DNA of 33,191 bases from Lysobacterales bacterium (GTDB lineage Bacteria > Pseudomonadota > Gammaproteobacteria > Xanthomonadales > SZUA-36): assembly GCA_029859645.1 (NCBI GenBank), contig JAOUCS010000028.1:1-33191 (forward strand), read 5' to 3'. Below the pieces are notes generated by a model that had not been told where the DNA came from, ran no database searches, and saw only the letters and a program-made list of their open reading frames with translations. Both the position numbers and the translations under genes were made by a program. How positions within the stretch are numbered: the first letter of the stretch is position 1; every line of letters starts with the position of its first letter. Below, piece after piece: positions 12,101 to 29,744 of the stretch.

Positions 12101-12361
12101 GCGGCAGGCGCCGCGCTGGAAGACGCGGTAGTCGCGGCGGCAGCGGTGCGCGCCAAGCCGATCATCCTGACTGCGCTGGCCGCCATGATGGGTGCTTTTT
12201 TCATTCTCGATGACCCGATCTTCAATGGCCTGGCTATCGCACTGATATTCGGCATCCTGGTCTCGACCCTGCTGACGCTTCTGGTCATTCCGGTGTTGCT
12301 TTACAGCTTCCGATATCAGAAACAGTCGCGCGTATCTGGCGAGACCTTGCCGGAAGCCTGA
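9125..12361 (+). CDS. RND efflux pump permease (AcrB/HAE-like)
   Basis: About 1078 residues from the GTG at 9125, which overlaps the adaptor stop (GTGACTGA); an upstream in-frame ATG at 8984 would start inside the adaptor gene. It shows the RND plan: a first membrane helix (LLALAALLLGLFAVLITP), a large periplasmic loop (PFPGAGSVEVENLVSIPMEQ is the porter-domain signature), helices 2-6 with the proton-relay Asp pair in SIGILVDDAIVVVENIHRHR near residue 424, a second periplasmic loop, and helices 8-12 (IGMIALAGIIVRNSILLVDF). It uses the proton gradient to export substrates through the adaptor. The substrate cannot be told from sequence; the family includes drug, solvent and lipid exporters. The following kinase-like gene overlaps its stop by one base. 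Confidence 0.93.
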   Translation: MTERLGLSGRIARQFQDNELTPLLALAALLLGLFAVLITPREEEPQIDVTFANVFVPFPGAGSVEVENLVSIPMEQVLAEIENVEHVYSVSRPGMAVLTVQFEVGQDRTVSLVKLYNAIYSNQDWRPANLGIGPPLVKPKGIDDVPIVTATLWTEDQERGGHDLLKVAHTLEAELKRVPGTRDVFTIGGAQDIVHVELDPERIAGFGLTLDDLRMALNAGNTVRQAGAIVTGGEEIPVQSGTFLSGPGDVASLVVGVFDNRPVFLDDIATIKAGGDQPEQYSWFAAGPAHEQAGHTRVAWAPAVTLAIAKKPGTNATRISNAVIERLEQLRATHIPDGIETTITRNYGQTANDKALKLISKLAFATGSVILLVLLTLGWREAIIVGAAVIVTLMVTLFASWAWGFTINRVSLFALIFSIGILVDDAIVVVENIHRHRGMKAGPLSGLIPGAVDEVGGPTILATFTVIAALLPMAFVTGLMGPYMSPIPINASIGMLFSLAIALVLTPWMSNRLLAGQTAHSVGDDKGGALHPFFRRLMTPFLRRSAGRRARTLLYASLLALIGLAVGLVMIQAVVLKMLPFDNKSEFQVVVDTPEGTPVENTAALLDELASIIETVPEVTNYQVYAGTAAPINFNGLVRQYYLRSDSNMGDIQVNLLDRHERDRSSHEIAAGIRDALATAGERYGASVKVVEVPPGPPVMSPIVAEIYGPDYEQQKLLARQVEAIYRETPDIVDIDITVEADARRYIIEVDRQLAALLGVSQQQVSTAVALALGGEDVTYIHQAREKEPIPVRLEAPVANKAYLQSLLALKVRSRDGVQVPISEFARVTEAPWDDAIIHKDLLPVVFVNGDMAGQLDSPLYGMFELSGRIDEIEYAGEGVEQRYISQPGNPYNFSLKWDGEWQITYETFRDMGIAYAVGLVLIFLLVVGQFRSYLLPLIIMAPIPLTVIGVMPGHALLGAQFTATSMIGMIALAGIIVRNSILLVDFIQQERAAGAALEDAVVAAAAVRAKPIILTALAAMMGAFFILDDPIFNGLAIALIFGILVSTLLTLLVIPVLLYSFRYQKQSRVSGETLPEA

Positions 12362-13974
12362 TGCAGGCCCGCTGCCCGGGCGCTGCCGCTAAACTGGAAA
12401 CGAGGAATGAAGCCCTGATCAATCCGTTAAAATTCGGTCGGCCATCCCTGATCCGCAACCTGATGAAGCCGGCCGCTTTTCCGCATCGGGTGGAAAAGAT
12501 TCGCCTGGTCGAAACGCATATTTCCTGGGTTCTGCTTACCGGCAGCGATGCCTACAAGATCAAGAAACCTGTCAACCTGGGATTTCTGGACTTCTCCTCG
12601 CTCGAGGACCGCAGGCATTTCTGCGAAGAGGAAGTCCGGATCAACCGGCGCACCGCTTCCGACCTCTATCTCGGGGTCGTGCCGATCGGCCAGACGCCGC
12701 ATGGGCCGCGTTTTGGAGCTGAGCCGCCAATCGAATTTGCGGTCCACATGCGACAATTTCCCCACGAGGCGAGATTGGACCGCTACCTGCAGGCCGGTCG
12801 CCTGGGTGCCGAGAGTACCAGGCAACTCGCGCAATCGATTGCGAGGTTCCACTTGACGTTGCCTCCCCGCCTTGACAGCGACCCCGATTTTGAGGTCGAG
12901 CGCGCTGTCCGGCCGGCACGCAACAATTTCAAACATCTCGATCCCCAGGCTTTCAGCGACGAGGCGCAACAGCGGCTGGCGGTGATCGAGGCATGGACCC
13001 TGGCCAGGTCCATTGCGCTGGCGCCGGCGTTCAGGACACGGGCACGATCCGGCGCCGTTCGTGAATGCCACGGTGATCTGCACCTTGAAAACCTGCTGTT
13101 GCTGGATAGGGGTTTTGTACCCTTCGACGCGATTGAGTTCAATCCCAACTTGCGCTGGATTGACATCGCAAACGATATTGCTTTCCTCGCCATGGATTTA
13201 CTGGCGCGCAGGCGCAGCGACCTCGCTTACTCACTGCTCAGTGCCTGGTTGGAGGCGAATGGTGATTACGCCAGTCTCGAGGTCATGCGGTTCTATCTGG
13301 TTTACCGCAGCATGGTACGTGCGGTGGTCTCGGCGATCCGTGCAAGCCAGGCTGTTGAGACAGCGGCAGATTCTGCACGGCCCGGTGCTGAACGATATGT
13401 AAAGATCGCCGCAGATCTGGTCGACACACCGACCCCCATCCTTATCCTGATGCATGGTTTTTCAGGATCGGGCAAGACCTGGTTCAGCAACCGGCTGGTG
13501 GCGAGTCTTCCTGCCTTAAGGGTCCGTAGTGACCTGGAACGCAAGCGTCCGAACGGCGATCGCGGCAGACAGCCTGAAAAGGGCGGGATCGGTGTCGGCA
13601 TGTATGGTTCAGAAGCGGTCGACCTGACTTATCGCCGCCTGGCCGATCACTGCCGGACCGGTCTGAGGGCCGGGTTCAACATGATCGCCGACGGGACTTT
13701 TTTGCAAAGGCGCCATCGGCTCTGGTTTGTCGATCTGGCCCGGTCCCTGGGCGTACGGTGCTACCTGCTGGACTGCACTGCACCCGAACAGGTTCTTCGC
13801 AACCGGATCCGAAGCCGCATGGAAACCCGCAAAGATGCCTCCGATGCGGACCAGGCCGTTCTGGATTTCCAGTTATCTCACCACGATCCGTTGTCGCAGG
13901 CAGAAGGCATGACCGTTATCACGCTCCCGCATGACAGTGACCCCAATCAGATCCTGCGGGAGCTATTCGATTGA
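12361..13974 (+). CDS. Fused APH-like kinase / P-loop ATPase (COG2187-COG0645 type)
   Basis: 537 residues in two domains. The N-terminal half (about 30-350) is aminoglycoside-phosphotransferase-like: LLTGSDAYKIKKPV holds the ATP-binding lysine region, ECHGDLHLENLLL is the catalytic loop (His237, Asp239), and FDAIEFNP with WIDIANDIAF supplies the metal-binding acid region. The C-terminal half (about 358-537) is a P-loop kinase-like domain with Walker A GFSGSGKT at 366-373 and a GTFLQRRHR segment. This fusion is a widespread family, usually annotated as bifunctional APH/ATP-binding protein, whose substrate is unknown; it is not evidence of antibiotic resistance. The ATG overlaps the pump stop in TGATG. 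A downstream ATG at 12463 (MKPAAFPHRVEK) is closer to where the family usually begins. Confidence 0.85.
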   Translation: MQARCPGAAAKLETRNEALINPLKFGRPSLIRNLMKPAAFPHRVEKIRLVETHISWVLLTGSDAYKIKKPVNLGFLDFSSLEDRRHFCEEEVRINRRTASDLYLGVVPIGQTPHGPRFGAEPPIEFAVHMRQFPHEARLDRYLQAGRLGAESTRQLAQSIARFHLTLPPRLDSDPDFEVERAVRPARNNFKHLDPQAFSDEAQQRLAVIEAWTLARSIALAPAFRTRARSGAVRECHGDLHLENLLLLDRGFVPFDAIEFNPNLRWIDIANDIAFLAMDLLARRRSDLAYSLLSAWLEANGDYASLEVMRFYLVYRSMVRAVVSAIRASQAVETAADSARPGAERYVKIAADLVDTPTPILILMHGFSGSGKTWFSNRLVASLPALRVRSDLERKRPNGDRGRQPEKGGIGVGMYGSEAVDLTYRRLADHCRTGLRAGFNMIADGTFLQRRHRLWFVDLARSLGVRCYLLDCTAPEQVLRNRIRSRMETRKDASDADQAVLDFQLSHHDPLSQAEGMTVITLPHDSDPNQILRELFD

Positions 13975-14072: not shown

Positions 14073-15251
14073 ATGAAAAAAACCGTTTATGTGTCCTCGG
14101 TTCTTACCTTTGGATTGCTTTTATTCTGCCTGACCTCGTTTGCCGCGGACCCGGCACCGTCCGATGTGTTGCAGCGCCATGATCCCTATTCCAGCCTGAC
14201 GATTGGATACGAGGATCTGGATACGCTGCTGCAGACCGTTGTTTTGGACACAGGCCCGTCAACCCGCGAAATTGCCAAGCCCACGAACACCAGCACCGGT
14301 ACCCGCATGAAGGTGAAGGTGAACAGGGCCACCATGAATGAAGGTAACCGGTTCTATTTTGAGATATTCAATGACAATGAAAAAAACCAGCAGATCATCA
14401 GTCACATTCGGAACCGGTTAGAAAATTTACCCACGGTGACACCGCTTGAGCGATTTTCCCGCAAGGAGCAACTGGCTTACTGGATCAACCTGTATAACGT
14501 CACGATCCTGGATGAAATCGTCAAAGTCTATCCAAAACGCAATCTCAAGGGACTGCTGGTCGGAAAGAACGCGATTCTGTCAAAAAAGATTCTCAATGTT
14601 GCAGGCGTTCCACTGAGTCTGAACGATATTCAGTTCACTATTCTGAGGCATAACTACGACAATAATCCGTTGATCATCTATGGCCTGTACCAGGGCATCA
14701 TTGGCGGGCCGAACATCCGAAAATATGCATATTCCGGCAGCAACATCTACGGTGAACTGGCCGATAACGCGGTCGAGTTCATCAATTCAAACCGGGGCAC
14801 GCAAGGAAAAGACGAGCGTGCGTTCCACGTATCCAGCCTGTACCAGCGCAACGAAGTATTCTTCGACGAATCCGGATCGGACCTGACCGACCATTTGCTG
14901 CGCTACCTGGAAGGTGAGGAGCGCGACGAGTTACAGGCATCAGCGAAAATCAAAATGGACATCAGCGACTGGACCATTACGGACCTTTACGGATCTTATC
15001 GTGAGGCCGTCGGCAGCCTGGCGAATAACAATGCCGCATTGCTTGGCTCCCTGCCGGGCTCCCAGTCGAATTATCTCACCAGCAAGGCGTCAAAGGGTCG
15101 CTATAATCCGGCCGTCACCCAGCAGCTGGGTGAGATCAACGAGAAACGCGAGACAAACGAGCCGGAAAGCATCGGTGTTGTGACCGTGGAGGAGTTGGAA
15201 ATCGTCGATGGCGGCTGTTTAGACGAACCGAGCGACTGTTCGTCGCAATGA
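14073..15251 (+). CDS. Secreted DUF547-domain protein
   Basis: 392 residues from the ATG at 14073, which has GGAG five bases upstream. A signal peptide (KKTVYVSSVLTFGLLLFCLT, cleavage near FAA) precedes a DUF547 domain recognised by EQLAYWINLYNVTILDEIV, then PLSLNDIQFTILR, then AYSGSNIYGELADNAVEFIN. The family is common in marine and soil Gram-negatives and plants; its function is not known. The last 60 residues are acidic and low in complexity, with a terminal pair of cysteines (GGCLDEPSDC). The 3' end overlaps the converging glycosyltransferase gene by 33 bases (15219-15251), so the two coding regions end inside each other. Confidence 0.85.
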   Translation: MKKTVYVSSVLTFGLLLFCLTSFAADPAPSDVLQRHDPYSSLTIGYEDLDTLLQTVVLDTGPSTREIAKPTNTSTGTRMKVKVNRATMNEGNRFYFEIFNDNEKNQQIISHIRNRLENLPTVTPLERFSRKEQLAYWINLYNVTILDEIVKVYPKRNLKGLLVGKNAILSKKILNVAGVPLSLNDIQFTILRHNYDNNPLIIYGLYQGIIGGPNIRKYAYSGSNIYGELADNAVEFINSNRGTQGKDERAFHVSSLYQRNEVFFDESGSDLTDHLLRYLEGEERDELQASAKIKMDISDWTITDLYGSYREAVGSLANNNAALLGSLPGSQSNYLTSKASKGRYNPAVTQQLGEINEKRETNEPESIGVVTVEELEIVDGGCLDEPSDCSSQ

Positions 15252-16397
15252 ATGCATGAATGCTTCTTCTGAAAACTGATGTGAGCGTGTGGCCAGGGCA
15301 CGCTTCAGTCTCGCTTGCTCTGGTGGGTCTTCCAGCAGGCAACAGATTTTCTCAACCGCGTCGGAATCCGACTGGTATCGCAAAAGCGGCTCCTCGCCGA
15401 CAATTTCCACCTGCCCACCGCAATCGGGAACGAATACAATGCAGCCGGCACGGAGCATTTCCGCCACGGCAATGCCGAAATGTTCATCCTGGGTGGCGTG
15501 AATGCCGAATTGGCAACGATTGACGATTTTTATCAGTTCTGGCCGTGCAACGCCGACGTGCAGATGGATCCAGTGATCAGCCGGGGTCGCCATCTGGAGA
15601 ATTTGCTCGCAATACCGCCTCTTCGCCGGCGGACCAGGGTCGCCTACGATGTGCAGGTTGACGCCGAACCCGCGATCGCGAACCTGTTGCAGGATTTCAA
15701 TGATTCGGTGCTGTCCTTTTTTGGGCGCGAATCGCCCCACTGCTACGAAAGACAATGGGTCTGGGTTTTCCCGCCCGGTTTCCTGTCCCCAACTGACGGG
15801 GGGGTAAATGACATCAGCGCTCGTGCCGTAGACCCGGGAGGCCAGGTCTGCAGTCCATTTTGAATTGGCAATCGTGATGTTATCGCAGAGCTTCGACGGT
15901 TTGATATTCGACAACAGCATCCAGGGACGGAACTTGCCCGTGATCAATCCTGCCAGGCGTTTTGCTGGCCCCAGGCCTTCCATTGCAGTCAATGCGGAAA
16001 GGTGTTCGGCAAGGTAGGGGAAATGGATGTACTGAATACCGGGGCATCCAAACTCCATCTCCTTATCGCAAGAGAGAACAACGTCGAATTCAGCCGCAAT
16101 TTTTTGGCACGCTCGGTTGAGTAAAGCCAGTGGCTGGATGCTTTGTGGATCTGGATCAAGCTCGCAAATCCAGCGATAAACAGCTGGCAGCAGGATGATC
16201 CGGAAGTCCGCCGCGTGCAGTGACGTTCCATAAATGGAGTTCAGAGCGTCGAAGTCGGGATTCTCGAGGCACAGAATCGTTACGTCCCAATCCGCTTTCA
16301 GCGCCTGAAGAGCCCAGGCAACAACGGAAATGTCTCCTCCGATGCGTCTCCACTGGGTCACCGGGAATAGAACGCTGCCTTTAATCTGGCCGGTCAT
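15219..16397 (-). CDS. Glycosyltransferase family 4 (GT-B) protein
   Basis: About 392 residues, last gene of the five-gene minus-strand operon. The N-terminal Rossmann half begins FPVTQWRRIGGDISVVAWAL, a typical GT4 acceptor-side GG loop. The C-terminal half has the GT4 motifs FVAVGRFAPKKGQHRIIEIL, a HIVGDPGP strand, and the donor-binding segment HATQDEHFGIAVAEMLRAGC (the E-x7-E region), followed by VPDCGGQVEIVG. It probably transfers a nucleotide-activated sugar to a surface glycan; donor and acceptor cannot be inferred. The ATG at 16397 lies 17 bases inside the upstream GT2 gene. Longer in-frame starts would lie deeper in that gene and add non-family residues. Its 3' end overlaps the DUF547 gene. 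Confidence 0.9.
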   Translation of the reverse strand: MTGQIKGSVLFPVTQWRRIGGDISVVAWALQALKADWDVTILCLENPDFDALNSIYGTSLHAADFRIILLPAVYRWICELDPDPQSIQPLALLNRACQKIAAEFDVVLSCDKEMEFGCPGIQYIHFPYLAEHLSALTAMEGLGPAKRLAGLITGKFRPWMLLSNIKPSKLCDNITIANSKWTADLASRVYGTSADVIYPPVSWGQETGRENPDPLSFVAVGRFAPKKGQHRIIEILQQVRDRGFGVNLHIVGDPGPPAKRRYCEQILQMATPADHWIHLHVGVARPELIKIVNRCQFGIHATQDEHFGIAVAEMLRAGCIVFVPDCGGQVEIVGEEPLLRYQSDSDAVEKICCLLEDPPEQARLKRALATRSHQFSEEAFMHSLRRTVARFV

Positions 16398-17280
16398 TCT
16401 TGACGAGCCGGTCCGCGGACCAGGCCCAGACCATGGCGCTGGAGTTGATGGCTTGAGACAGGGCCAGCAGCATCGACAGGTGAAGTGATTTGATACCGCC
16501 ATCTTTCAGCGGAGCAAGAATCAGGCTGCCGTAGAAAGCAAGCGGATGGGTGAAAAAGCGACGATCGGTGCGGGTGATGCGCCTCTTGCGGAAGTGGTAC
16601 GAGCCTATTCCGTAACGCCAGTGCGTTCTGAAAAATCCTGTCAATGAAAGTCGATGGTAATGCGTAACGCGGGCTTCCGGGCAATCATTCAACTTGACCC
16701 CGATGTCGGCAAGCCTTGAACAAAAATCCCGGTCTTCACCGGTAGACCAGTGGAATATAGGATCGAATCCTCCCACCTCGCGAAAACTGTCGATGGGTAC
16801 CAACATGTTGTTGGGCGTAAAGAACCGCAAATTGTCATTGACCGAAGGCCAATATTGGCAAATATGCTCGATCAGAAGGTGCGTAGCCTGGGTCAGCGCG
16901 CTATCCGGAAAGCCATTGTCGATGCCGCCACCCAAAACCGAATCTCCCGCATTGGCGGTGAATGCCTCAAGCCAGTCGGTTGAAACAATGCAGTCATCTC
17001 CTATGAAAGCCAGGAATCGTCCACGCGCTTTTTCCGCACCGGCATTTCTCGCCACACTGACACCTTCGTGTGGACGGACCAGGCAGCGGATGTTCAGATG
17101 ATCCGTGAATTCGTTCACCACGAGCTCCGGTGATTGTTCACTGCCATCATCGACGATGATCACCTCGAAAGTACCCGTCTTATCGTGCAGGTTCTTCAGC
17201 GCTTCAAGGCAAGGCCTCAAATTGGAAGCGCGTTGGTAAGTCGGGATGACTACCGAGATCAGCGGTGCAGATTCCGTCAC
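16381..17280 (-). CDS. Glycosyltransferase family 2 protein
   Basis: About 299 residues. The GT-A fold shows PLISVVIPTYQRASNL, then VIIVDDGSEQ (first Asp pair), HEGVSVARNAGAEKARGRFL, and AFIGDDCIV replacing the usual DxD. The acceptor side has STGEDRDFCSRL (ED motif) and HYHRLSLTGFF. Two hydrophobic C-terminal stretches (HPLAFYGSLILAPL and LHLSMLLALSQAI) may attach it to the membrane. I chose the GTG at 17280 because it forms a GTGA overlap with the stop of the preceding gene (17277-17279) and leaves a GGAG about ten bases upstream; a GTG at 17304 would add eight residues and a 28-base overlap. Likely role: sugar transfer in a surface polysaccharide or glycan. Confidence 0.9.
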   Translation of the reverse strand: MTESAPLISVVIPTYQRASNLRPCLEALKNLHDKTGTFEVIIVDDGSEQSPELVVNEFTDHLNIRCLVRPHEGVSVARNAGAEKARGRFLAFIGDDCIVSTDWLEAFTANAGDSVLGGGIDNGFPDSALTQATHLLIEHICQYWPSVNDNLRFFTPNNMLVPIDSFREVGGFDPIFHWSTGEDRDFCSRLADIGVKLNDCPEARVTHYHRLSLTGFFRTHWRYGIGSYHFRKRRITRTDRRFFTHPLAFYGSLILAPLKDGGIKSLHLSMLLALSQAINSSAMVWAWSADRLVKNDRPD

Positions 17281-18500
17281 CGCTGGCGCACTCCAAGCTG
17301 ACACAATTTACGGTAAATTTTCTGCACCAGGCTGGTTTGCATGGCTTTCCTCAAATGGCCCAGCTCTGCCTGCAATGCTACGCGGTCATCCAGTCGGAAT
17401 ACGGAATGCGCGGGGTGCAATTGGTCCATCGCAAGCAGATACTCCACCCTGGCGGGCTCGTTCATGACCTGTTCCAGCATCCGGGCAGGAAAACTCAGCG
17501 CTTTCCCGGCCAGGCGGGCCTGCCTGCCTGACTCGATCATGCCGCCCGCAAGAGCGAGCACGCGTGGCGTGGCCGGTCCCCGGCACTCGAGGGTATCGTG
17601 CAGTACCATTTCCTGGTAAAGCATCCGTTGTGGGGAAGGGTCGGCCAGCATGCGCAGGGTTGGGCCCAGCTGCTCCGCTGCAGTAATCGTCCAGGCTGCC
17701 GGTACAAAAGCCGGCCGGTTACCGAAGTCCAACAGGGCAACCGGTAAACCTGACATCATCGCGTCAACCTGCACGCTGGAAGGTGTGGAAATCACTGCAT
17801 CAACGACTTGCATTTGGTCCTGCAGAGGTACCCGGCCAAACGTATTTGCACCGCCGGCTACCTCGGCTACTTCGTCGGCGACACGCCAAATGGCTTCGAA
17901 CGGTGCTTGTTTTCCGCGAAGGTAAGATTTTAGATCGTTCAGGCTGCATCGGACCGATTCGATGTGATCTGGAGTGAACCCGGGACTTTGAGCGGTGGTT
18001 ATCAGCAGTTTCTTTTTCTTACCGGCAGGTGTTTCACAGAGTTCTTTTCGAACGATTGAATCGTAGCGCGGAGAACCTGTTACTTCGCATTTTTCAGCAT
18101 TACCGAGGGATGCGAGAACACGGGCCTGAGACCAGCCCATGCAGGCAATCTTGTCGGCCAGGATCGGCTGAAACAAGGGCATGCCCTCGTTGTCGGATGC
18201 CTGGCGGGGGTTCTCCCATGTATTCCTCCACTCAGCAATACCGTCTGCCAGATGCAGTGACGGAATGCTGCGACGATGCAATTCAGCCAGTCCTGCCGCA
18301 CAAAACGGCCAGGTTTCGTCGTTCACGATTACCAGGTCTGCTTTGAAATCAGGGTCGAGAAGACCGGGTGGCGAAACTGAACGGCAATCAGCGTCCATTT
18401 CAGCAAGCAGGGCGGATCTCAGCCGATCGAAGAAAGGCCCCTTCAGATGACCATCGACAAATGCAACAAGCGGTCTTGCAGAAGTCAAACTCGTAACCAC
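17277..18500 (-). CDS. GT-B-like protein, CDP-glycerol glycerophosphotransferase / capsule type
   Basis: 407 residues. I recognise the general pattern of GT-B proteins of the TagF/capsule-synthesis and polysialyltransferase-like groups: an N-terminal Rossmann half (VAFVDGHLKGPFFDRL, LVIVNDETWPFC), a linker ILADKIACMGWSQARVLASL followed by CEVTGSPRYD (the widespread VTGxPRxD turn), and a C-terminal half with VVDAVISTPSSVQVDAMMSG and LPVALLDFGNRP, equivalent to the donor-site SS motif. The exact family and substrate are uncertain; it might also be a glycan-processing protein without transferase activity. The GTG start at 18500 overlaps the oxygenase gene by 16 bases and its stop overlaps the GT2 start by 4, so it is translated as part of the operon. 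Confidence 0.65.
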   Translation of the reverse strand: MVTSLTSARPLVAFVDGHLKGPFFDRLRSALLAEMDADCRSVSPPGLLDPDFKADLVIVNDETWPFCAAGLAELHRRSIPSLHLADGIAEWRNTWENPRQASDNEGMPLFQPILADKIACMGWSQARVLASLGNAEKCEVTGSPRYDSIVRKELCETPAGKKKKLLITTAQSPGFTPDHIESVRCSLNDLKSYLRGKQAPFEAIWRVADEVAEVAGGANTFGRVPLQDQMQVVDAVISTPSSVQVDAMMSGLPVALLDFGNRPAFVPAAWTITAAEQLGPTLRMLADPSPQRMLYQEMVLHDTLECRGPATPRVLALAGGMIESGRQARLAGKALSFPARMLEQVMNEPARVEYLLAMDQLHPAHSVFRLDDRVALQAELGHLRKAMQTSLVQKIYRKLCQLGVRQR

Positions 18501-19360
18501 GAAAACAATTGGCGGGCATAATAGCGCAAGCGATACGGGTAATGCGCTACCTGGTATGGTGCGGAATCGAACAGGCCCTGCTCCATTTCGACCACGAGGT
18601 TCACGAACTTACGCGTAAACGGTGTGACTCCACGTGGTGTCACGGCATGCAGTGCATTAATGGAGTTCAGGAAAACCACGACTAGATTGTTCTGGTACGG
18701 AATGGTTTTCACCACTTCCCCATAGGAGGGTTCCACATCGTATCGCCAGAATGCTTTCCGGTCAGGATTCTTGTATCTGCACAGTTGTAATTCGCCACCC
18801 CGGGTGTCGGTATCGGCCTCGGGACGCAGGTAATAGAGCCCCGTAAAAAGCTTGGTAGGCAGATCGACATGCAACATGCGAACCGATGTGGGTATGGCGG
18901 CGACCGGGGTATTGATGGAAATTCCTGCGTCCAGCAGTATTTCCTTGTCATCGTAGGTATCCCGGAATCGTACGCCGCTGCGTACCCTTTCCAGCGATGG
19001 ACCGAATCGCTCGATCAAATCCGGATAGGTGTTTTCAATGGCAGGCTGGAACAGCCTCACCACGTGTTCAAGAAAACGGTGCGAGGATTGCTCTGCAATG
19101 AACGTTTTCCATAGCGGAGACACCTCTTCACTAACGGATACATCGTGGGCATAAATATCCAATCGCTTGTTCGATCCCAGAGGAGATTCCGGACTTGCTC
19201 GGGCCATAATTTCATCTGGCGGATATTCTTCGGTCAGTTGCCTGGCCAACTCCCCCGGCAAGGGATTCTTGATGACCAGGTGCGGGAACGGCTCCATTTC
19301 AACGCATTCAGGAGATAGGCCAGCGATCAGGTTGCAGTCCAGTGAGGTCCATTCTGTCAT
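18485..19360 (-). CDS. 2-oxoglutarate/Fe(II)-dependent oxygenase, active-site intact
   Basis: 291 residues with a double-stranded beta-helix oxygenase core of the prolyl-4-hydroxylase-like type. The metal triad is visible: His164-x-Asp166 in RMLHVDLPTK, followed at the usual spacing by YYLRPEADTDTRGGELQL, and the distal His238 in NALHAVTPRG. Arg250 in TPFTRKFVN is well placed to bind the 2-oxoglutarate carboxylate. The N-terminal third (residues 1-130) is shared with the next gene upstream and starts EPFPHLVIKN. Substrate is unknown; its place in front of three glycosyltransferase-type genes suggests hydroxylation of a sugar, glycolipid or glycan carrier. The ATG overlaps the stop of the paralogous gene in an ATGA. 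Confidence 0.8.
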   Translation of the reverse strand: MTEWTSLDCNLIAGLSPECVEMEPFPHLVIKNPLPGELARQLTEEYPPDEIMARASPESPLGSNKRLDIYAHDVSVSEEVSPLWKTFIAEQSSHRFLEHVVRLFQPAIENTYPDLIERFGPSLERVRSGVRFRDTYDDKEILLDAGISINTPVAAIPTSVRMLHVDLPTKLFTGLYYLRPEADTDTRGGELQLCRYKNPDRKAFWRYDVEPSYGEVVKTIPYQNNLVVVFLNSINALHAVTPRGVTPFTRKFVNLVVEMEQGLFDSAPYQVAHYPYRLRYYARQLFSWLRV

Positions 19361-20187
19361 GTGATCAGCCTGTCGTAGTATCCGCGCAGGTAGCGATGTG
19401 TAAGACCCCAGGGCGTGTAATCCAGGTCAAACAGCTTGTAGGGCGTGCGGACCGTGAAATTGCAGTACATCAGTGGATGCTGGCCAGGGCCCCTGGCTGT
19501 CAGGGCCTGGATGGCGCGTGGGTTGTTTATGACCATGACCAGGGTGTTTTTACCGTAGGGAATGGTTTTCTCCAGAATCAGTCTGTCCCGCCGCGTTTGT
19601 GCCCATTTGCCGAATCGAAGGGTTCCGCCAGGCTTTGCCGAGAAAAGTTCATAATCACCGCCTGGAGCGGTATCGTTATCAGGGCGCAAGTACAGGAAGC
19701 CTTCCAGGAATTTGTCGACATTCTTGACATGTGGCCGTCGCTCCAGCTTAAGTCCCGCGCTAACCGGAGTGTGTATTCCTATCAAAGCATTGATAAGCAC
19801 ATCATATTGCTCAAAACTGTCTTCGCCATCGATGCCCACGGTAAAGGATTCCAGCGGCTTGCTGAAGGTCGCTTCCAGATCAGGAAGTTCCTGCCGGATG
19901 GCTGGCCCAAAAACCTGTGCGATCTGGCGGTAAAAATCCGCTGTCAGGTGTTCTTGCAAGAAGGATTTCCAAACTTCGGCCACGCGCGGATCGTCGCATG
20001 CCTTGACAGCCGGGTAGTAAATTTTCGTGTTTTCACCCATGTCCCGACCGCCGGTAAAAACATCCAGCGAGGGAAAGCCGTCGATCAGTTCTCTGCGTAA
20101 ACCGGATTCCAGGGCGTTTTCCAGAACCAGATGTGGATAGGGTTCAAGGGTCACACTCTCGGGTTTCACGCCGTTTAGTAGGGTCAT
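19357..20187 (-). CDS. Degenerate 2-oxoglutarate oxygenase paralogue (predicted pseudoenzyme)
   Basis: 276 residues, clearly homologous over its length to the next gene (EPYPHLVLEN against EPFPHLVIKN; LEGFLYLRPDNDT against FTGLYYLRPEADT). Aligned without gaps in the core, His153 is kept, but the Asp of HxD is Lys155 (HVKN), the distal His is Gln227 (RAIQALTARG), and the expected 2-oxoglutarate Arg is Leu239. It therefore should not bind iron or co-substrate in the normal way. The reading frame is intact and translationally coupled to the active paralogue by a 4-base overlap, so it is more likely a partner or scaffold subunit than decay. It is the first gene of the glycan operon; a TATAGT -10 lies about 50 bases upstream. 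An altered triad using Asp158 is an alternative. Confidence 0.75.
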   Translation of the reverse strand: MTLLNGVKPESVTLEPYPHLVLENALESGLRRELIDGFPSLDVFTGGRDMGENTKIYYPAVKACDDPRVAEVWKSFLQEHLTADFYRQIAQVFGPAIRQELPDLEATFSKPLESFTVGIDGEDSFEQYDVLINALIGIHTPVSAGLKLERRPHVKNVDKFLEGFLYLRPDNDTAPGGDYELFSAKPGGTLRFGKWAQTRRDRLILEKTIPYGKNTLVMVINNPRAIQALTARGPGQHPLMYCNFTVRTPYKLFDLDYTPWGLTHRYLRGYYDRLIT

Positions 20188-20233
20188 GCTTTAAATTCAC
20201 AATCAGCGCGCTGTACAGGACGGTATGTCGCAT

Positions 20234-20239
20234 ACTATA
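20234..20239 (-). promoter_or_regulatory. Predicted -10 element of the glycan operon
   Basis: On the minus strand TATAGT (preceded by TTGC) lies 47 bases before the first start codon of the five-gene operon. No good -35 hexamer is visible 16-18 bases upstream, so an activator may be needed or the promoter may lie elsewhere. Confidence 0.3.
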
Positions 20240-20308
20240 GCAAGGCGCGCGGATCAGCATCCAGTGAGGCAGCCACGTCGCGCCAGCCGTCATTCGGAAC
20301 CTGATTAT

Positions 20309-21562
20309 TTACCAGCTAACCGGGTTCCGGTTCAGCGGCATGGTCATGCAGCGACAGCCGCCACCCCCCCGCGAGAGTTCTGAGCCTTGCATGGTTACCA
20401 GGGTTGGGCGCCCGGGTTCCAGTGAGAGCTCTTCGCTGATGAACCTGTCCGCCGATACAATCTCGAAACCGTTCTTCGCCAGTTCCTCAGCGGTTGCCTG
20501 GTTATGCTCGAATCCAAGAATATGGCCCGGTGCCAGGGCAAAGAAATTGGCCCCGGACGCCCACTGTTCACGTTCCTGGCGTAACTCGTTGTCGCCGCCG
20601 CAGGAGATGGGCTTGAGATCCAGTCCCTGGGTTCTCAATGCTTCCAGCACACCTGGATATTCCACGATCCGTTTGACCTGCCGCTGCTCGTAATGCACAT
20701 GGAAGGCCCTGCATTTGTGCAGACCGTTGATCAACGGCGAAAAGACCACGCAGCTGTCGCGGTCCACCATCGTGAATATCATGTCCAGGTGGATGGTGGC
20801 CCTGGACTTGGGTATCTCCACCACGACGAAGTTTTCCACCCCGCCTTTTTCGGCAATGGCCTGCATCAGGGTGTCGATACCGCGGGCAGTAGTACGCTCG
20901 CTGTATCCGATAATGATCAGGTCCTCGCGCAACACCAGCAGATCGCCACCCTCTATGGTGATTTTCTGGCTGGTGCTGGCCGTGCCGTCGAAGTAGAAGC
21001 CATCCGAACCTATCCTGCTGTGGTATTTGAAAATAGCTTTGAGCAGTAATGCTTCCGCGAACCGCGCCTTGAATGCCATCGAGCCGATAATCACGCTCTC
21101 GTTCACCGCCATGACAGCATCCCGTGTGAAGAACGCGTTTGGCAGTGGCGGGATCGCATGCCGGAGCGGGCTGAGGTATTTCTCCAGGCTGTCTTTGCGC
21201 ATCGGCGTACCCTGGAACAGCTGCGCCGCCAGCTCGGCGTCTGCAGTATCCTTGAGCTCCTGCGCCAGCTCTTCGCAATCGTACAGCGCCACCAGCTCAT
21301 CAACCAGCAAGCCCTTCATGCGCTCGTCGGCCAGGGCATCACACAGCAGGTCCTCGAATTCATAGACGTCGGCGACACGGCGCAATACACCGGTCAGCTG
21401 ATCGTGTTCTCTCAAGGCCAGTTGCAGGTTCAGGATGTCGTCATACAGAACCTCGGCTGCGCTGGCGGGGGTCATGTTCTCGATTTCCCTGCCCGGGCGG
21501 TGAACCATCACGGCATTGAGCGCGCCGATCTCCGAGTCGATGCTGATCTGGGTTTCTCGCAT
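20309..21562 (-). CDS. arcA: Arginine deiminase
   Basis: 417 residues, the normal size for EC 3.5.3.6, which converts arginine to citrulline and ammonia. Active-site features are all present: an N-terminal GALNAVMVHRPGREIENM, the first Asp in EGGDLLVL (guanidinium binding), His in ATIHLDMIFTMVD, a second Asp near SCGGDNELRQ, and the nucleophile Cys405 in the C-terminal GGGGCRCMTMPLN. The start at 21562 gives the family's N-terminus and has GGAAG five bases upstream; longer in-frame starts lack support. There is no ornithine carbamoyltransferase, carbamate kinase or antiporter next to it, so the usual arc operon is not assembled here. Ammonia production or acid/anaerobic stress roles are possible. 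Confidence 0.95.
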   Translation of the reverse strand: MRETQISIDSEIGALNAVMVHRPGREIENMTPASAAEVLYDDILNLQLALREHDQLTGVLRRVADVYEFEDLLCDALADERMKGLLVDELVALYDCEELAQELKDTADAELAAQLFQGTPMRKDSLEKYLSPLRHAIPPLPNAFFTRDAVMAVNESVIIGSMAFKARFAEALLLKAIFKYHSRIGSDGFYFDGTASTSQKITIEGGDLLVLREDLIIIGYSERTTARGIDTLMQAIAEKGGVENFVVVEIPKSRATIHLDMIFTMVDRDSCVVFSPLINGLHKCRAFHVHYEQRQVKRIVEYPGVLEALRTQGLDLKPISCGGDNELRQEREQWASGANFFALAPGHILGFEHNQATAEELAKNGFEIVSADRFISEELSLEPGRPTLVTMQGSELSRGGGGCRCMTMPLNRNPVSW

Positions 21563-21605
21563 GTTGCTTCCGTGTGTGACCGTTGGGTTTGTAGTGCAAT
21601 GGCTG

Positions 21606-21636
21606 ATTATCGCACAACGAGTGGAAATATTGTCCG
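21606..21636 (-). promoter_or_regulatory. Predicted arcA promoter
   Basis: On the minus strand GATAAT (21611-21606) carries a TGC extension directly upstream, an extended -10. CGGACA (21636-21631) is a weak -35 at a long 19-base spacing. A half-conserved FNR-like sequence, TTGAT-CTGC-AATAA, lies at 21663-21676, about 70 bases upstream of the expected start. Confidence 0.35.
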
Positions 21637-21720
21637 TCTTCGTGTTGTCCTTATACAAATTTTTGATCTGCAATAAACGCATTATGAACACTTCTTTTCT
21701 TATTGAAATCAAATAGTTTA

Positions 21721-21869: not shown

Positions 21870-23039
21870 ATGGTTGTCGCACTCATTGTTGTCACAACAG
21901 TCATTGTGTTTCTGGTGGTTGATATTCTGCTCCGCGTTTCCCTTAAAAGAATGCGTGAATCCCGGACCAGGAAGGAACGAGAGCAGGCGCTGGATATCGG
22001 GCTTAAACTTGATGTGAGCGAAGAAGCGCCCAGCCTGAAACGGGTAGAACTGGAGCAACCCGAAGCCCGTATTCTGGCGGTCGATGACGAAGAGATCATT
22101 CTTGACAGCTTCAGAAAAATTCTGGTTCTTGCAGGCTATAGCATCGACACGGTGGAAACCGGCCCCGAAGTACTCGGGCTGATCCGCCGGAATGACTACG
22201 ATTTCGTATTCACTGATCTGAAAATGCCCGGGATGGACGGGGTCGAGGTGACGAAAGCGGTCAAACACCTGCGCCCCGATATCGACGTGATCGTCATCAC
22301 CGGCTACGCATCGATTGAAACAGCAGTGGAAACCGTTAAATTCGGGGCGGCGGACTATGTAGAAAAACCATTTACCGAAGATGAGCTTCTCGAGTTTGTC
22401 AAAACGGCATTGATCAGGCGGCAGGATCGCCTGGAAAAACAGATGAGGCACAACATCCGCCTGATCAGGCCGGGTACCCGCGAATCCACGTCAAGATACG
22501 CATTGAATGTTCCTGCAGGCGTATTTGTCTCCCCGCAACACGCATGGGCGCAAATTGAAATGAACGGGACCGTCCGGGTCGGGTTGGATGACCTGATCAG
22601 AAAGCTGTTCGAAAAAGTCGACCACGTGGATTTACCGGAAACCGGGCAAAAAATCGAAAAAGGCAATCCCCTGTTTACGCTCAGATACGGCTCCTGGTTG
22701 TTGAAAGTACCTTCTCCATTCAGTGGCACAGTCACGTCTGTCAATACGGAACATGCCGATCATCCTGAATGGCTTTCCATCAAGCCATTCGAGCTGAGCT
22801 GGATGTGCGGAATTGAGCCGTCCAACCTGGCCGGGGAATTGCCGGGCCTGAAAATCGGGCGTGATTCGATCGATTGGTACCAGTCGGAAATCGACAGATT
22901 CAACAGGCTTTCATCGGAATATGCACAGGACGGTACCCGGCCCGGGCCCGAACAGCCTGAACAGGCCGGAAATGCAGACGAATTAAAGGTTCTGGTGGAT
23001 TTTGCAAAGCCGGTTCTCCAACCAGAGAGGTCTGATTAA
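21870..23039 (+). CDS. Membrane-anchored response regulator with GcvH-like output domain (1)
   Basis: 389 residues, start supported by GGGGAG seven bases upstream. The layout is: one N-terminal membrane helix (about 2-22), a charged linker (about 25-62), a receiver domain (about 66-182; Asp72/Asp73, phosphoacceptor Asp116 in FTDLKMPGMDG, Thr144 in ITGYAS, Lys166 in EKPFTEDE), and a domain with the fold pattern of glycine-cleavage H protein (about 215-320: AGVFVSPQHAWAQIEMNGTV, then RVGLDDLIRKL, then SPFSGTVTSVN). At the position of the lipoyl lysine (SVKA in GcvH) it has Ser, so it should not carry lipoate. There is no DNA-binding domain, so it must act by protein contact at the membrane. First gene of the cluster; close paralogue of 28584-29744. 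The acidic, proline-rich tail (350-389) is not conserved in the paralogue. Confidence 0.85.
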   Translation: MVVALIVVTTVIVFLVVDILLRVSLKRMRESRTRKEREQALDIGLKLDVSEEAPSLKRVELEQPEARILAVDDEEIILDSFRKILVLAGYSIDTVETGPEVLGLIRRNDYDFVFTDLKMPGMDGVEVTKAVKHLRPDIDVIVITGYASIETAVETVKFGAADYVEKPFTEDELLEFVKTALIRRQDRLEKQMRHNIRLIRPGTRESTSRYALNVPAGVFVSPQHAWAQIEMNGTVRVGLDDLIRKLFEKVDHVDLPETGQKIEKGNPLFTLRYGSWLLKVPSPFSGTVTSVNTEHADHPEWLSIKPFELSWMCGIEPSNLAGELPGLKIGRDSIDWYQSEIDRFNRLSSEYAQDGTRPGPEQPEQAGNADELKVLVDFAKPVLQPERSD

Positions 23040-25886: not shown

Positions 25887-27755
25887 ATGATGCTCAACAG
25901 CAAAATTGGCTTCAAACTGACTTTCGGCGTCGTGCTGACGGTTCTTTTCGCGATCGGGATTTTCGCTTACTTCAACATTCAGTCCGAAAGAAAAAGCCTG
26001 CTGGGCGAAATTGAACGGCACGCGAATCAACTCAGCGAAGCGGTCAAGTCGGATACCGAATACGATATGATGCGAAACGATCGGGACCGAATCCATGAAA
26101 GCATCCGTCGTATTGGCCAGCAGAAAAGCATCGACCGCGTCCGTGTATTCAACAAGTCGGGAGAAATCATCTACTCCTCGGACAGCGCCGAAATCGGCAA
26201 GATGGTCGACAAAAAAGCGGAAAGTTGCTATCGCTGCCATTTAGCAGGAGAGCCCCTGGAACACCTGGAGACGCCTGATCGCACACGGGTCTTTAGCCCC
26301 GGCGAAGAGGCGCCGCGGCTCCTGGGCATCATCAATCCCATTTATAATGCGCCAAACTGCTGGACTGCAAGCTGCCATGCGCACCCCAGGTCGCAAACGG
26401 TGCTGGGCGTGCTGGATGTCACCATTCCCCTGACCGAACTTGACCGGACCATCCGCCGCAGCCAGGCGGCGGTCGTGGCGCTGGCCGTCGGCGTCATCCT
26501 GATTTTGAGCCTGATCGTCGGTTTCATGGTCCGGTGGTTGATCGACAGACCGGTGCAGGAACTCCTGACAGCAACCAGGCATGTTGCCGGCGGCGACCTG
26601 GGGTACCGGGTCGATGCCGATAGCGACGATGAACTCGGCATGCTGGCCAGGTCCTTTAACAATATGAGCGATAAGCTGGCGGAAGCCCGGTTACAGCTTT
26701 TCCAGTCCGACAAACTTGCCTCACTGGGACGGTTGGCCGCCGGGGTTGCGCACGAAATAAACAACCCGCTGACAGCAGTGCTTACCAACAGCAGTTACCT
26801 GCTGAAGCGGGCGGAGGGGCAGGATGACACACGTGAGGATCTGAAGGTCATCGTGTCTGAAACCATCCGTTGCCGCGAGATCGTCAAGAGCCTGCTGGAT
26901 TTTGCCCGGCAGACCGTCCCGAAAAAACGCCAGGCCGCCATCAATGAGATTATCCAACGCGCCGTGGTGGTGATCGAAAATCAACTCTCGCTGGGAAGAG
27001 TAGAACTGGTAATGGACCTGGATGACGCGCTGCCCAGAGTGACGGTCGACGCGAACCAGATTCAGCAGGTTTTTATCAACCTGCTGGTCAACTCGCTGGA
27101 CGCCATTGGCGAACAAAGCGGCTCCATAAAAGTGACCAGCAGGGCGGTCAGCGTTCACCCTGCCGGGATGCTCCAGATCAAGCGAGCCCAGTGTCCGAAA
27201 CGGCATGACCTGATTGACAGAAAAGTTCAGATCGACGGTAAACCGGCCATTGGGATACGTTACCGAAAGCAGGATGAAACCGGCCTCATTTACCTCGACT
27301 CCATCTACGGATCGCAGCAGCATCGCCTGGACGACATGCCAGATCTCAGGGATGGTGTCGAACTCCTGTGCCCGGAATGTTCAAGGTCGCTCATCGCCGA
27401 GGGCGAGGCCTGCCCGAAGTGCGGCGCACCGATCTATGCGTTTGAAGTTCCGCTGAAAGGCATGGTCCAGGGTTGTTTGCAGGATGGATGCGGATGGCAT
27501 CGCTGGGAGCAGGTTGATTCCTCCTGGAACGACAAATTTGTGGAAGTCCGGGTGGCAGATGACGGTTGTGGCATTCCCAAAAGTCAGATCCCGAAACTGT
27601 TCGAGCCGTTTGCAACGACCAAGGGCCAGAAGGGCACAGGATTGGGGCTGGCCGTTACCTGGGGGATTGTAGACAATCATAATGGCACCATTTCGGTGGA
27701 AAGCGAGGTCGGCGTTGGCACGACCTTTATCATCCGGATTCCGGTGGAATCATGA
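25887..27755 (+). CDS. Heme-binding sensor histidine kinase with zinc-ribbon insertion in its ATPase domain
   Basis: 622 residues. Membrane helices at about 8-29 and 194-216 enclose a periplasmic sensor with two c-heme attachment motifs, CYRCH (114-118) and the longer CWTASCH (158-164). A HAMP segment (about 217-268), a dimerisation/phosphotransfer helix with His289 in GVAHEINNPLT, and a HATPase follow. The ATPase N box (Asn398/Asn402, FINLLVNSLDA) and the G boxes (ADDGCGIP 557-564, GTGLGLAV 583-590) are separated by an insert of about 130 residues (421-550). The insert carries CPKRH (436-440), CPEC (495-498), CPKC (509-512) and C-x4-CGWH (530-538), a zinc-ribbon-like cysteine pattern. F box: LFEPFATTK. 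The stop overlaps the next regulator gene in ATGA. It likely senses redox state both outside, through heme, and inside, through thiols or metal. Confidence 0.88.
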   Translation: MMLNSKIGFKLTFGVVLTVLFAIGIFAYFNIQSERKSLLGEIERHANQLSEAVKSDTEYDMMRNDRDRIHESIRRIGQQKSIDRVRVFNKSGEIIYSSDSAEIGKMVDKKAESCYRCHLAGEPLEHLETPDRTRVFSPGEEAPRLLGIINPIYNAPNCWTASCHAHPRSQTVLGVLDVTIPLTELDRTIRRSQAAVVALAVGVILILSLIVGFMVRWLIDRPVQELLTATRHVAGGDLGYRVDADSDDELGMLARSFNNMSDKLAEARLQLFQSDKLASLGRLAAGVAHEINNPLTAVLTNSSYLLKRAEGQDDTREDLKVIVSETIRCREIVKSLLDFARQTVPKKRQAAINEIIQRAVVVIENQLSLGRVELVMDLDDALPRVTVDANQIQQVFINLLVNSLDAIGEQSGSIKVTSRAVSVHPAGMLQIKRAQCPKRHDLIDRKVQIDGKPAIGIRYRKQDETGLIYLDSIYGSQQHRLDDMPDLRDGVELLCPECSRSLIAEGEACPKCGAPIYAFEVPLKGMVQGCLQDGCGWHRWEQVDSSWNDKFVEVRVADDGCGIPKSQIPKLFEPFATTKGQKGTGLGLAVTWGIVDNHNGTISVESEVGVGTTFIIRIPVES

Positions 27756-28540
27756 ATACGGCGCGGGACATTCTGGTAATCGACGATGAACTGACGGTCA
27801 CTCAGGCTGTGGTCAAAGTGTGCAGCGCAGAAGGAATGACGGTCGCTGCAGCGGACAGCGCGAGCGACGCGCTCCGCTACCTGGAGGATGGCGAGTTTTG
27901 CCTGGTCCTTTGCGACATCATGATGAGCGGTCTCGACGGTTTTCAATTCCTCGAAGAACTCGACCGCAGAGGCATCCAGACCCCCGTGGTGATGATGACA
28001 GGCTACTCCACTGTTGAAAATGCAGTCAGGAGCCTGACTTCGACCGGCGCCGTTGACTATATTCCCAAGCCGTTCACGGCCGATGAATTGCTCGCAGTTG
28101 TCCGGCGCAGCCTGCGATGCGCCCAGCTGCTTGAAGAAGCTGAGTCGGCCAGTCTCGAGCACCCCGGTTGCATGAGTTACGTGCCTTGCCCGGCCAACTA
28201 TTACCGGCTCGGATATGTCAGCTGGGCTGTGCTGGAGGACGAAGGGACAGCCAGAATTGGGGTCAGTGACCTGTTCCTGAAGGCGGCGGAAGGTATCGCC
28301 GAGCTGGAATTGTCATTAACCGGCGAAGACTTACTGCAGGGTATTCCCTGTGCGGTCGCAATTTCGCAGGACGGATCCCGGCATGAAATCATCTGCCCTA
28401 TGGACGGGACCATACTCGAGGTCAATTCGGAAACGCAATCGAATCCCTCCCTGGTCGAGAAAGACCCTTATTTCAGAGGGTGGCTTTACCGGATACTGCC
28501 ACCTAACCCGGAGAACAACCTGCAGTGGCTGAGTTTATGA
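27752..28540 (+). CDS. Soluble response regulator with GcvH-like output domain (2)
   Basis: 262 residues. A receiver domain (about 5-125) with Asp11/Asp12, phosphoacceptor Asp55 in LVLCDIMMSGLDG, Thr83 in MMTGYS and Lys106 in PKPFTADEL is followed by a GcvH-like domain (about 150-250: GYVSWAVLEDEGTARIGVSD, then IICPMDGTILEVN, then DPYFRGWLYRI). The lipoyl-lysine position is Gly, so no lipoylation is expected. Unlike the other two regulators it has no membrane helix, and it has extra cysteines (140, 146, 200, 215). Its start overlaps the kinase stop by 4 bases, which makes it the most probable direct partner of that kinase. No DNA-binding domain is present. Confidence 0.85.
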   Translation: MNTARDILVIDDELTVTQAVVKVCSAEGMTVAAADSASDALRYLEDGEFCLVLCDIMMSGLDGFQFLEELDRRGIQTPVVMMTGYSTVENAVRSLTSTGAVDYIPKPFTADELLAVVRRSLRCAQLLEEAESASLEHPGCMSYVPCPANYYRLGYVSWAVLEDEGTARIGVSDLFLKAAEGIAELELSLTGEDLLQGIPCAVAISQDGSRHEIICPMDGTILEVNSETQSNPSLVEKDPYFRGWLYRILPPNPENNLQWLSL

Positions 28541-28583: not shown

Positions 28584-29744
28584 ATGAAGGCCATTCTGCT
28601 AACAGTCGTATTGCCGACCCTGATTCTGTTCTTTTTTTTGAACCTGGCTGCAAGGGAGTGGTTTTCGAGAATCCAGGAGAAAAGACGGCGGGCTGAACGC
28701 GAAGAGGCGCTGACTGAAAGTCTCAGGCTTGATTTCACGCGTGAATCCAAAACTCTGAAACGGGTCGAAGTTGAAGACCCGAAGGCCCGTATTCTTTGTG
28801 TTGATGATGAAGAGGTGATTCTTGATAGCCTGCGTAAAATCCTGGTTTTGGACGGCTATAACGTGGATACCGTCGAGACAGGACAGGAGGCTCTGGGACT
28901 GGTCCAGATCAACAGCTACGATTTCGTTTTCACCGACCTTAAAATGCCGGCCATGTCGGGAACCGATGTGGCCAAATCCGTCAAGCACCTGCGACCGGAT
29001 ATCGATGTTGTCATCATCACGGGCTACGCAAGCGTGGAATCTGCCGTGGAGTGCATGAAACACGGAGTGCTGGATTATATTGAGAAGCCATTTACTGAAG
29101 ACGAGTTGAGACTGTTCGTCAAACGGGCCATGTTCAAACGGCAGGACCGGATCGAAAAGCAGCTGAAACCAAGGGTTCACGTGATGGGTCCGGCAGAATC
29201 GGAACAGGTCTTCGGCAACGAGTTCACGGTGCCGGGCGGTGTGTTGGTTTCACCTGGCCATTGTTGGGTCAGGCTGGCGCAAGATGGCACTGCAAAGGTC
29301 GGACTCGATGACTTCGCCAGGAAGCTGCTGGGTTCCATCGACTCGATTAATTTCCCCAATATCGGCATGAACGTAAAGGCAGGGGAAGCCCTGTTCAGCG
29401 TCAACCAGGGCCATCGCACGGCAAGTTTTCATGCGCCACTGAGCGGTAAAGTTGTGCAGATCAATGACCGTCTCGGAACAGACAGCTCACTGCTCTCAGA
29501 GATGCCGTACGGTGAGAACTGGGTTTGCATCATCGACGGTGAGGATTTGGATACCGAGTTACCCGATTTGAAAATTGGAAAGTCGGCCGTGGTTCTGTTC
29601 CAGGAGGACATAGACCGGTTCCAGGATGCCGTTCAAAAAGCGACAGATGATGACTCACCTGAAACGGCGCTCTTCATAGGTGTCATTGAAAAGATGGACG
29701 ATGCTCGCTGGCAGCACATGGTTGATCTGTTTTTCAAGGCTTGA
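28584..29744 (+). CDS. Membrane-anchored response regulator with GcvH-like output domain (3)
   Basis: 386 residues; AGGAG seven bases before the ATG. It has the same plan as the first gene of the cluster: membrane helix (about 3-22), charged linker, receiver domain (about 68-184; Asp74/Asp75, phosphoacceptor Asp118 in FTDLKMPAMSG, Thr146, Lys168) and GcvH-like domain (about 217-325: GGVLVSPGHCWVRLAQDGTA, then KVGLDDFARKLLG, then FHAPLSGKVVQIN). His replaces the lipoyl lysine. The receiver domains of the two anchored regulators are nearly collinear (VDDEEVILDSLRKILVL against VDDEEIILDSFRKILVL; VKHLRPDID and EKPFTEDEL are identical), pointing to a duplication. A C-terminal extension (about 330-386) is helical and acidic. 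Last gene of the redox/signalling set. Confidence 0.85.
   Translation: MKAILLTVVLPTLILFFFLNLAAREWFSRIQEKRRRAEREEALTESLRLDFTRESKTLKRVEVEDPKARILCVDDEEVILDSLRKILVLDGYNVDTVETGQEALGLVQINSYDFVFTDLKMPAMSGTDVAKSVKHLRPDIDVVIITGYASVESAVECMKHGVLDYIEKPFTEDELRLFVKRAMFKRQDRIEKQLKPRVHVMGPAESEQVFGNEFTVPGGVLVSPGHCWVRLAQDGTAKVGLDDFARKLLGSIDSINFPNIGMNVKAGEALFSVNQGHRTASFHAPLSGKVVQINDRLGTDSSLLSEMPYGENWVCIIDGEDLDTELPDLKIGKSAVVLFQEDIDRFQDAVQKATDDDSPETALFIGVIEKMDDARWQHMVDLFFKA

Follow-up and report, generated by a model that had tools for sequence, protein, structure and literature searches.

A predicted non-catalytic homologue encoded with a 2-oxoglutarate oxygenase-type protein at the head of a glycosyltransferase operon in a Lysobacterales bacterium

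The contig JAOUCS010000028.1 of a Lysobacterales bacterium (assembly GCA_029859645.1; 255 contigs, 3.84 Mb, 95.7% complete), which we analyzed over its entire length of 33,191 nucleotides and refer to as the window, carries two overlapping genes for homologous proteins of the 2-oxoglutarate (2OG)-Fe(II) oxygenase type. We designate the first gene in reading direction UP and the second DOWN. DOWN has all four catalytic residues, while UP has lost three of the four. With about even confidence, we propose that DOWN works as an active 2OG oxygenase with UP as its non-catalytic partner, the two probably acting on a glycan, a sugar nucleotide or a glycolipid. The features that bear on this proposal are as follows.

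19357 to 20187, minus strand: UP, an intact frame of 276 amino acids with an ATG start, a homologue of 2OG-Fe(II) oxygenases predicted to be non-catalytic (H153, K155, Q227, L239)
18485 to 19360, minus strand: DOWN, an intact frame of 291 amino acids with an ATG start, a predicted active 2OG-Fe(II) oxygenase (H164, D166, H238, R250)
19357 to 19360, minus strand: ATGA overlap of 4 bases, the start of DOWN over the stop of UP, with putative translational coupling
19723 to 19731, minus strand: UP codons 153 to 155, His-Val-Lys, where relatives have His-x-Asp
19507 to 19509, minus strand: UP codon 227, Gln; the second ligand His stands here in all 39 other rows of the alignment
19471 to 19473, minus strand: UP codon 239, Leu; an Arg of the 2OG-binding type stands here in all 39 other rows

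Active-site residues of UP, DOWN and their relatives

UP and DOWN align from end to end with 31% identity (BLASTP E 2e-39). DOWN has the HxD...H triad and the C-terminal 2OG Arg as H164, D166, H238 and R250. At the aligned positions UP reads H153-x-K155...Q227...L239, and the motif of functional Fe(II)/2OG oxygenases, HxD...H plus Arg, is absent from it. A preliminary description of the locus had assigned these same residues to the two proteins and had stated that both frames are intact with a 4-base overlap; we find both statements to be correct, with bases 19360 to 19357 reading ATGA. K155 of UP cannot be put down to one sequencing error, since going from an Asp to a Lys codon takes two or more base changes.

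Relatives were drawn from plasmids (3 records), genome contigs (26 loci), viral contigs (41 loci) and further genomes, and their motifs were read in overlapping sets of 72, 15 and 40 rows, with identical proteins left out of the 72-row table. The residues H/D/H/R are present in 69 of the 72 rows, the exceptions being UP, a fragment with no residues in this region (L054) and a distant viral row that reads HEHK (L056). They are also present in all 15 of the later rows, two of which (L094 and L098) repeat genes already counted, and in 39 of the 40 rows of the third set, where the exception is UP. One partial frame (L138) stops short of the motif. The loss of the active site is peculiar to UP and untypical of the family, and since the full-site relatives include no UP orthologue in a pair, the loss dates to UP's own lineage. 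The preliminary description had regarded relatives whose first protein keeps the triad as a potential argument against an inactive copy. The triad is kept in the relatives, but as there is no paired UP orthologue among them, this does not refute an inactive copy.

With these losses UP is very probably not a canonical oxygenase. It might still be an oxygenase of another sort, holding iron by His153 alone or by newly recruited ligands, for example His139 or Asp158, a reading that we consider very improbable. Human AspH, a two-His enzyme, is described as still active with a single His ligand (PMC10947486), and His139 is found only in UP, at a position where 33 of 39 rows have N. However, the Arg at the 2OG position of UP is gone too, and Lys155 would occupy the place of the acid ligand. 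The preliminary description had itself raised a shifted iron site formed by His153 and Asp158, which is unlikely on the evidence of the Asp158 column: 26 of the 39 relatives have N (19) or D (7) there, all of them also keep the ligand Asp, and Asp158 is therefore an ordinary residue of the family.

Predicted fold and retention of UP

Naming by homology failed for both proteins. UP had no Pfam match at E values up to 1, neither protein matched NCBIfam or PHROGs, and searches of the PDB by sequence and with a profile returned nothing usable. DOWN, scanned against Pfam without its first residue, matched PF13640 (2OG-FeII_Oxy_3) with E 6.3e-5 and 24.3 bits (25.3 bits in the genome search), under the cut-off of 27, and is therefore placed by fold and motif and not as a member of PF13640. 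As homology failed, the fold was reached through models. AlphaFold2 with 45-row alignments gave a predicted local distance difference test score (pLDDT) of 92.0 and a predicted template modeling score (pTM) of 0.88 for UP, and 91.8 and 0.89 for DOWN, and structure prediction of each protein, a check suggested in the preliminary description, returned the same fold for the two. Both models match the double-stranded beta-helix fold, UP through 9blq_B (Z 17.7, root-mean-square deviation (rmsd) 2.8, 186 aligned) and DOWN through 9blq_A (Z 17.6, rmsd 2.9, 193 aligned). This entry, PolD, is the top PDB match of both, followed by PasI (9ei6, 9ei7; Z 16.9 for UP, 17.3 for DOWN), OGFOD1 (4nhx; Z 16.2 with rmsd 5.1 for UP, Z 16.6 for DOWN), Tpa1 (3kt7; Z 15.6 for UP, 16.5 for DOWN) and the hypoxia-inducible factor prolyl hydroxylases at about 13 to 14; Foldseek also gave fold matches for both, and differences in Z within 1 count as ties. 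Sequence identity in the PolD and PasI alignments to both models is 12 to 20%. The models thus predict that UP and DOWN share a prolyl-hydroxylase-like barrel fold, although a common fold shows no function.

Several measures bear on whether UP is kept as a protein. After 9 distant or fragmentary rows were dropped from the 72, leaving 63, there were 23 positions conserved at 95% or more in the 62 rows other than UP, and among these UP has lost three of four catalytic positions versus two of 19 others (Fisher one-sided p 0.021), a concentration of losses on catalytic positions that is suggestive at these numbers. Hydrophobic-core positions are kept at 54 of 57 in UP and 55 of 57 in DOWN. The leave-one-out profile score of UP is 209.6 bits, second lowest of 40, where full-site rows score 199.3 to 332.7. 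The codon usage of UP is in keeping with that of the window's other genes, with a score of 0.099 (operon mates 0.024 to 0.057), versus -0.053 and -0.259 when UP is read out of frame, and third-position GC is 0.603 for UP and 0.586 for DOWN. We also subjected the DOWN gene to simulated random substitution, modeling base substitutions alone at an even rate over the gene. The share of runs that lost three or more catalytic residues and stayed free of stop codons was highest, 0.19%, at 100 changes (8,000 runs).

A gene in early decay, with its site lost by chance and its frame still unbroken, would account for the presence of UP in one genome only, for its place as the fastest-evolving row and for our failure to find an orthologue for the ratio of nonsynonymous to synonymous change (dN/dS). 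Such decay is improbable in our judgment, however, given how few of the simulated runs reach this state and given that core, profile score and codon usage are all kept. Neither a broken frame nor a lost coding signal, which would mark a pseudogene, was found in UP. Since UP has lost its ligands and the 2OG Arg yet is constrained as a protein, while its relatives keep the site, retention for some function is a better reading than decay, in agreement with the preliminary description, and we conclude that UP is very probably retained as a protein.

Relatives, operon and neighboring genes

As found here, the family of DOWN is a rare bacterial family that is otherwise single and full-site. Profile searches detected it in 9 of 398 genomes of the phylum (two weak, E about 5e-7), and in other searches in 14 of 289, 2 of 369, 1 of 198, 2 of 111 and 4 of 160 genomes (one of the last four cut by a contig end). 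Each of 78 loci has one family member. For the 20 genomes behind the named loci, 17 gave one match, two gave a weak second match (E 2.5e-6 and 3.2e-6), and in genome G1061 two full-length copies, each with the full site, lie on different contigs. The 41 viral contigs (L023 to L063) carry one relative each, amounting to 35 different proteins in the motif table. Searches for orthologues of UP found no relative in 29 stretches returned from genome contigs and none in 12 stretches returned from viral contigs. Within its own GTDB family UP matched 1 of 39 genomes, the source genome itself, and within the class 2 of 369, the second match being a full-site row and not an UP orthologue. The absence of a match to UP in the other 38 genomes of the GTDB family makes the operon look acquired.

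A tree of 49 rows joins DOWN to a Saprospirales protein (97/91) and puts UP apart, on the longest end branch, 1.83 changes per column. With same-order relatives added, a 40-row tree places DOWN in a six-row group with the Saprospirales protein, L017, L069, L136 and L137 (87/86, not starred), and UP is unplaced, again on the longest end branch (1.96 changes per column). The approximately unbiased (AU) test does not reject trees in which UP and DOWN are constrained to group (p 0.137 with 49 rows, 0.126 with 40). The preliminary description had called the two paralogues: they are homologues, but the AU test neither supports nor rejects an origin of UP by duplication of DOWN.

The genes behind DOWN, on the same strand and overlapping, agree with the earlier statement that the pair heads a glycosyltransferase operon. 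They are given here in order.

17277 to 18500, minus strand: frame of 407 amino acids with no Pfam family above cut-off, a putative glycosyltransferase
16381 to 17304, minus strand: glycosyltransferase of family 2 (GT2), PF00535 E 9.8e-25
15219 to 16502, minus strand: glycosyltransferase of family 4 (GT4) type, PF00534 E 4.2e-18, whose start may lie inside

From its first start the GT4 frame overlaps the GT2 gene by 122 bases. A search of the 39 genomes of its own GTDB family with the 407-amino-acid frame gave one relative besides itself, 35 to 37% identical. This relative sits in a polysaccharide cluster of the Wzm/Wzt type (ABC2_membrane, ABC_tran with Wzt_C, a sulfotransferase, a methyltransferase, two GT4 and Bac_transf), which ties the operon to an exported polysaccharide. 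On the other side, an arginine-deiminase-like gene (20309 to 21712, minus strand; strong Pfam ADI match, NCBIfam arcA at 293.7 bits under a cut-off of 489.1) ends 121 bases ahead of UP. A consensus scan of positions 15000 to 20500 for a promoter ahead of UP found 0, with 3.4 expected by chance.

To compare settings, one to eight adjoining frames, which are long open frames and not curated genes, were scanned with Pfam at each of 21 loci of relatives. Glycan genes take the form of sugar-nucleotide enzymes, GT2 and sulfotransferases at L064; GT2, a flippase-type Polysacc_synt and a sulfotransferase at L021; a member of the polysialyltransferase family at L017; and GT2 directly upstream at L145 and L147, the latter also with a PMT-like gene. 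A CDP-alcohol phosphatidyltransferase gene adjoins 3 of the 21 loci, L018 and L139 of one genus and L142, where inositol-1-phosphate synthase is also present, and 13 of the 21 have neither kind of neighbor. Within DOWN's six-row group, three of the five other members (L064, L017 and L145) have glycan neighbors, L146 lies with a histidine kinase, and L069 has nothing in the two frames scanned. Together with the two clear glycosyltransferases of the operon, this partly supports the glycan setting of the preliminary description, in which the pair would act on a glycan or glycolipid. We think it fairly probable that the substrate is a glycan or glycan precursor.

Other observations concern the relatives and the window. 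The relatives beside CDP-alcohol phosphatidyltransferase genes (L018, 8195 to 9487; L139, 5198 to 6490; L142, 6444 to 8419) hint at oxidized inositol lipids. On Azospirillum plasmids (L005, 4843 to 7471; L006, 6950 to 11774) a family member lies by GNAT and tail-fiber genes, with an FkbM methyltransferase and a glycosyltransferase a few kb away, and at L068 a family member adjoins ATP-grasp ligases. The window itself contains three plus-strand genes (21870 to 23039, 27752 to 28540 and 28584 to 29744) in which a receiver (response regulator) is fused to a glycine-cleavage-H-like domain; the same stretch has a four-cluster-type ferredoxin with a twin-arginine-translocation-like signal, an NrfD-like membrane protein, a HAMP histidine kinase and a HAD hydrolase. 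A 537-amino-acid protein (12361 to 13974, plus strand) combines an APH-like stretch, below cut-off, with a following AAA_33 kinase domain.

A proposed partnership and its alternatives

An inactive oxygenase subunit that serves an active one has been described in fungi. TlxI is without the 2OG arginine, is catalytically incompetent and lends a loop to the substrate site of TlxJ, whose kcat/Km is given as 0.02 alone and 1.63 as a heterodimer with TlxI (PMC12141560). Like TlxI/TlxJ (and TlxA/TlxC), in which two homologous subunits come from one cluster and the dead one is needed for full activity of the other, UP and DOWN combine a protein without the 2OG Arg and a homologous partner with the full site, and UP has lost the iron ligands as well. 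Unlike UP and DOWN, TlxI/TlxJ belongs to a fungal meroterpenoid pathway, and its heterodimer was established by experiment and crystal structure, whereas we infer one here. OGFOD1 and Tpa1 likewise have a catalytic and a metal-free barrel that cooperate (PMC4396695), and the top fold matches of the UP and DOWN models include their catalytic domain. These, however, are eukaryotic, act on a ribosomal protein and hold both barrels in one polypeptide (12% identity between the domains in OGFOD1), while UP and DOWN are two frames with a stop between them. KdoO, the 3-hydroxylase of 3-deoxy-D-manno-octulosonic acid in lipopolysaccharide, is an Fe/2OG/O2 step between the glycosyltransferases of a bacterial surface glycan (PMC8533242); we liken it to DOWN by description, not by sequence, and it is presented there as a single enzyme, with no dead partner described. 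PolD and PasI, as the best fold matches of both models, are a further point of comparison, with PasI solved with a nucleoside-sugar phosphate according to the entry titles, but they belong to natural-product nucleoside pathways. We know of no dead partner of either. No bacterial live/dead pair of this fold appeared among the top-ranked matches of searches in open-access papers, and UP and DOWN would be a bacterial version of a known arrangement, found in one genome.

Based on motif and fold, DOWN would bind iron and 2OG and oxidize a substrate. UP may be made in step with DOWN through the start/stop overlap and, while no longer holding iron and 2OG in the usual way, would stay folded. By analogy with TlxI and TlxJ, UP might bind DOWN and stimulate it, shaping or covering its active site or holding the substrate. 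Together with the glycosyltransferases, the pair could hydroxylate, or otherwise oxidize, a sugar nucleotide, a lipid-linked sugar or a surface glycan. We speculate further, as an unlikely possibility, that two separate homologous barrels form a surface-glycan oxygenase: the phosphate of a sugar nucleotide or lipid-linked sugar would be bound in a recharged, basic pocket of the dead barrel, which would offer it to the live one. This would be a split bacterial counterpart of OGFOD1/Tpa1 and TlxI/TlxJ, and its product a hydroxylated sugar not yet described.

That UP is a partner of DOWN is a view that we favor slightly. UP could instead be an independent binding protein or another kind of enzyme and not a subunit of DOWN, its acidic pocket turned basic and perhaps able to hold an anion such as a sugar phosphate or lipid phosphate. 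We rate this as rather unlikely, although it fits the change of three family-conserved acidic positions (Asp144, Asp166 and Glu258 of DOWN) to neutral or basic residues (Asn133, Lys155 and Arg247 of UP), the long end branches and the placement of UP away from DOWN in free trees. That the three recharged residues share a common pocket is an assumption, however, and since the UP gene overlaps that of a homologue by ATGA, it is simpler to suppose that the two proteins work together. Independently of this and the other alternatives, the pair may be real and its substrate a protein or peptide, an inositol lipid or a small natural product. The CDP-alcohol phosphatidyltransferase (L018, L139, L142), ATP-grasp (L068) and GNAT/tail-fiber (L005, L006) genes beside relatives are in line with this, as is the presence of the ribosomal prolyl hydroxylases OGFOD1/Tpa1 among the next best fold relatives, but the next genes in the window include glycosyltransferases, and the best fold relatives are PolD and PasI, entered with iron and, for PasI, with a nucleoside-sugar phosphate. 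We regard a non-glycan substrate as possible, though not likely.

Several observations weigh against our proposal of a retained, non-catalytic partner that acts on a glycan. No second adjacent pair was found in the 78 loci or in the genome profile searches, a check that the preliminary description had suggested; only the window's genome has one. All the relatives of DOWN that were found would act, if at all, with no UP beside them. Neither tree pairs UP with DOWN as sisters, so the two need not share a homodimer interface. Glycan genes lie beside the oxygenase in only 5 of the 21 loci family-wide. For the retention of UP, the Fisher p value is 0.058 at a conservation threshold of 90% and 0.067 at 100%, and at 95% it is 0.028 when rows from viral contigs are left out (33 rows). 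The AlphaFold confidence for UP owes much to the active relatives in its alignment, and a recent loss would leave less constraint visible.

Pairs of a live and a dead enzyme illustrate how a protein whose chemistry is gone can still have a role. The printed examples that we found among 2OG oxygenases are from a fungal pathway and from fused eukaryotic ribosomal hydroxylases. If our proposal of a partnership between UP and DOWN is true, a bacterial pair encoded by overlapping genes would be a small system in which to test the role of the dead partner, and it would point to an as yet unassigned oxidation step in surface-sugar assembly.

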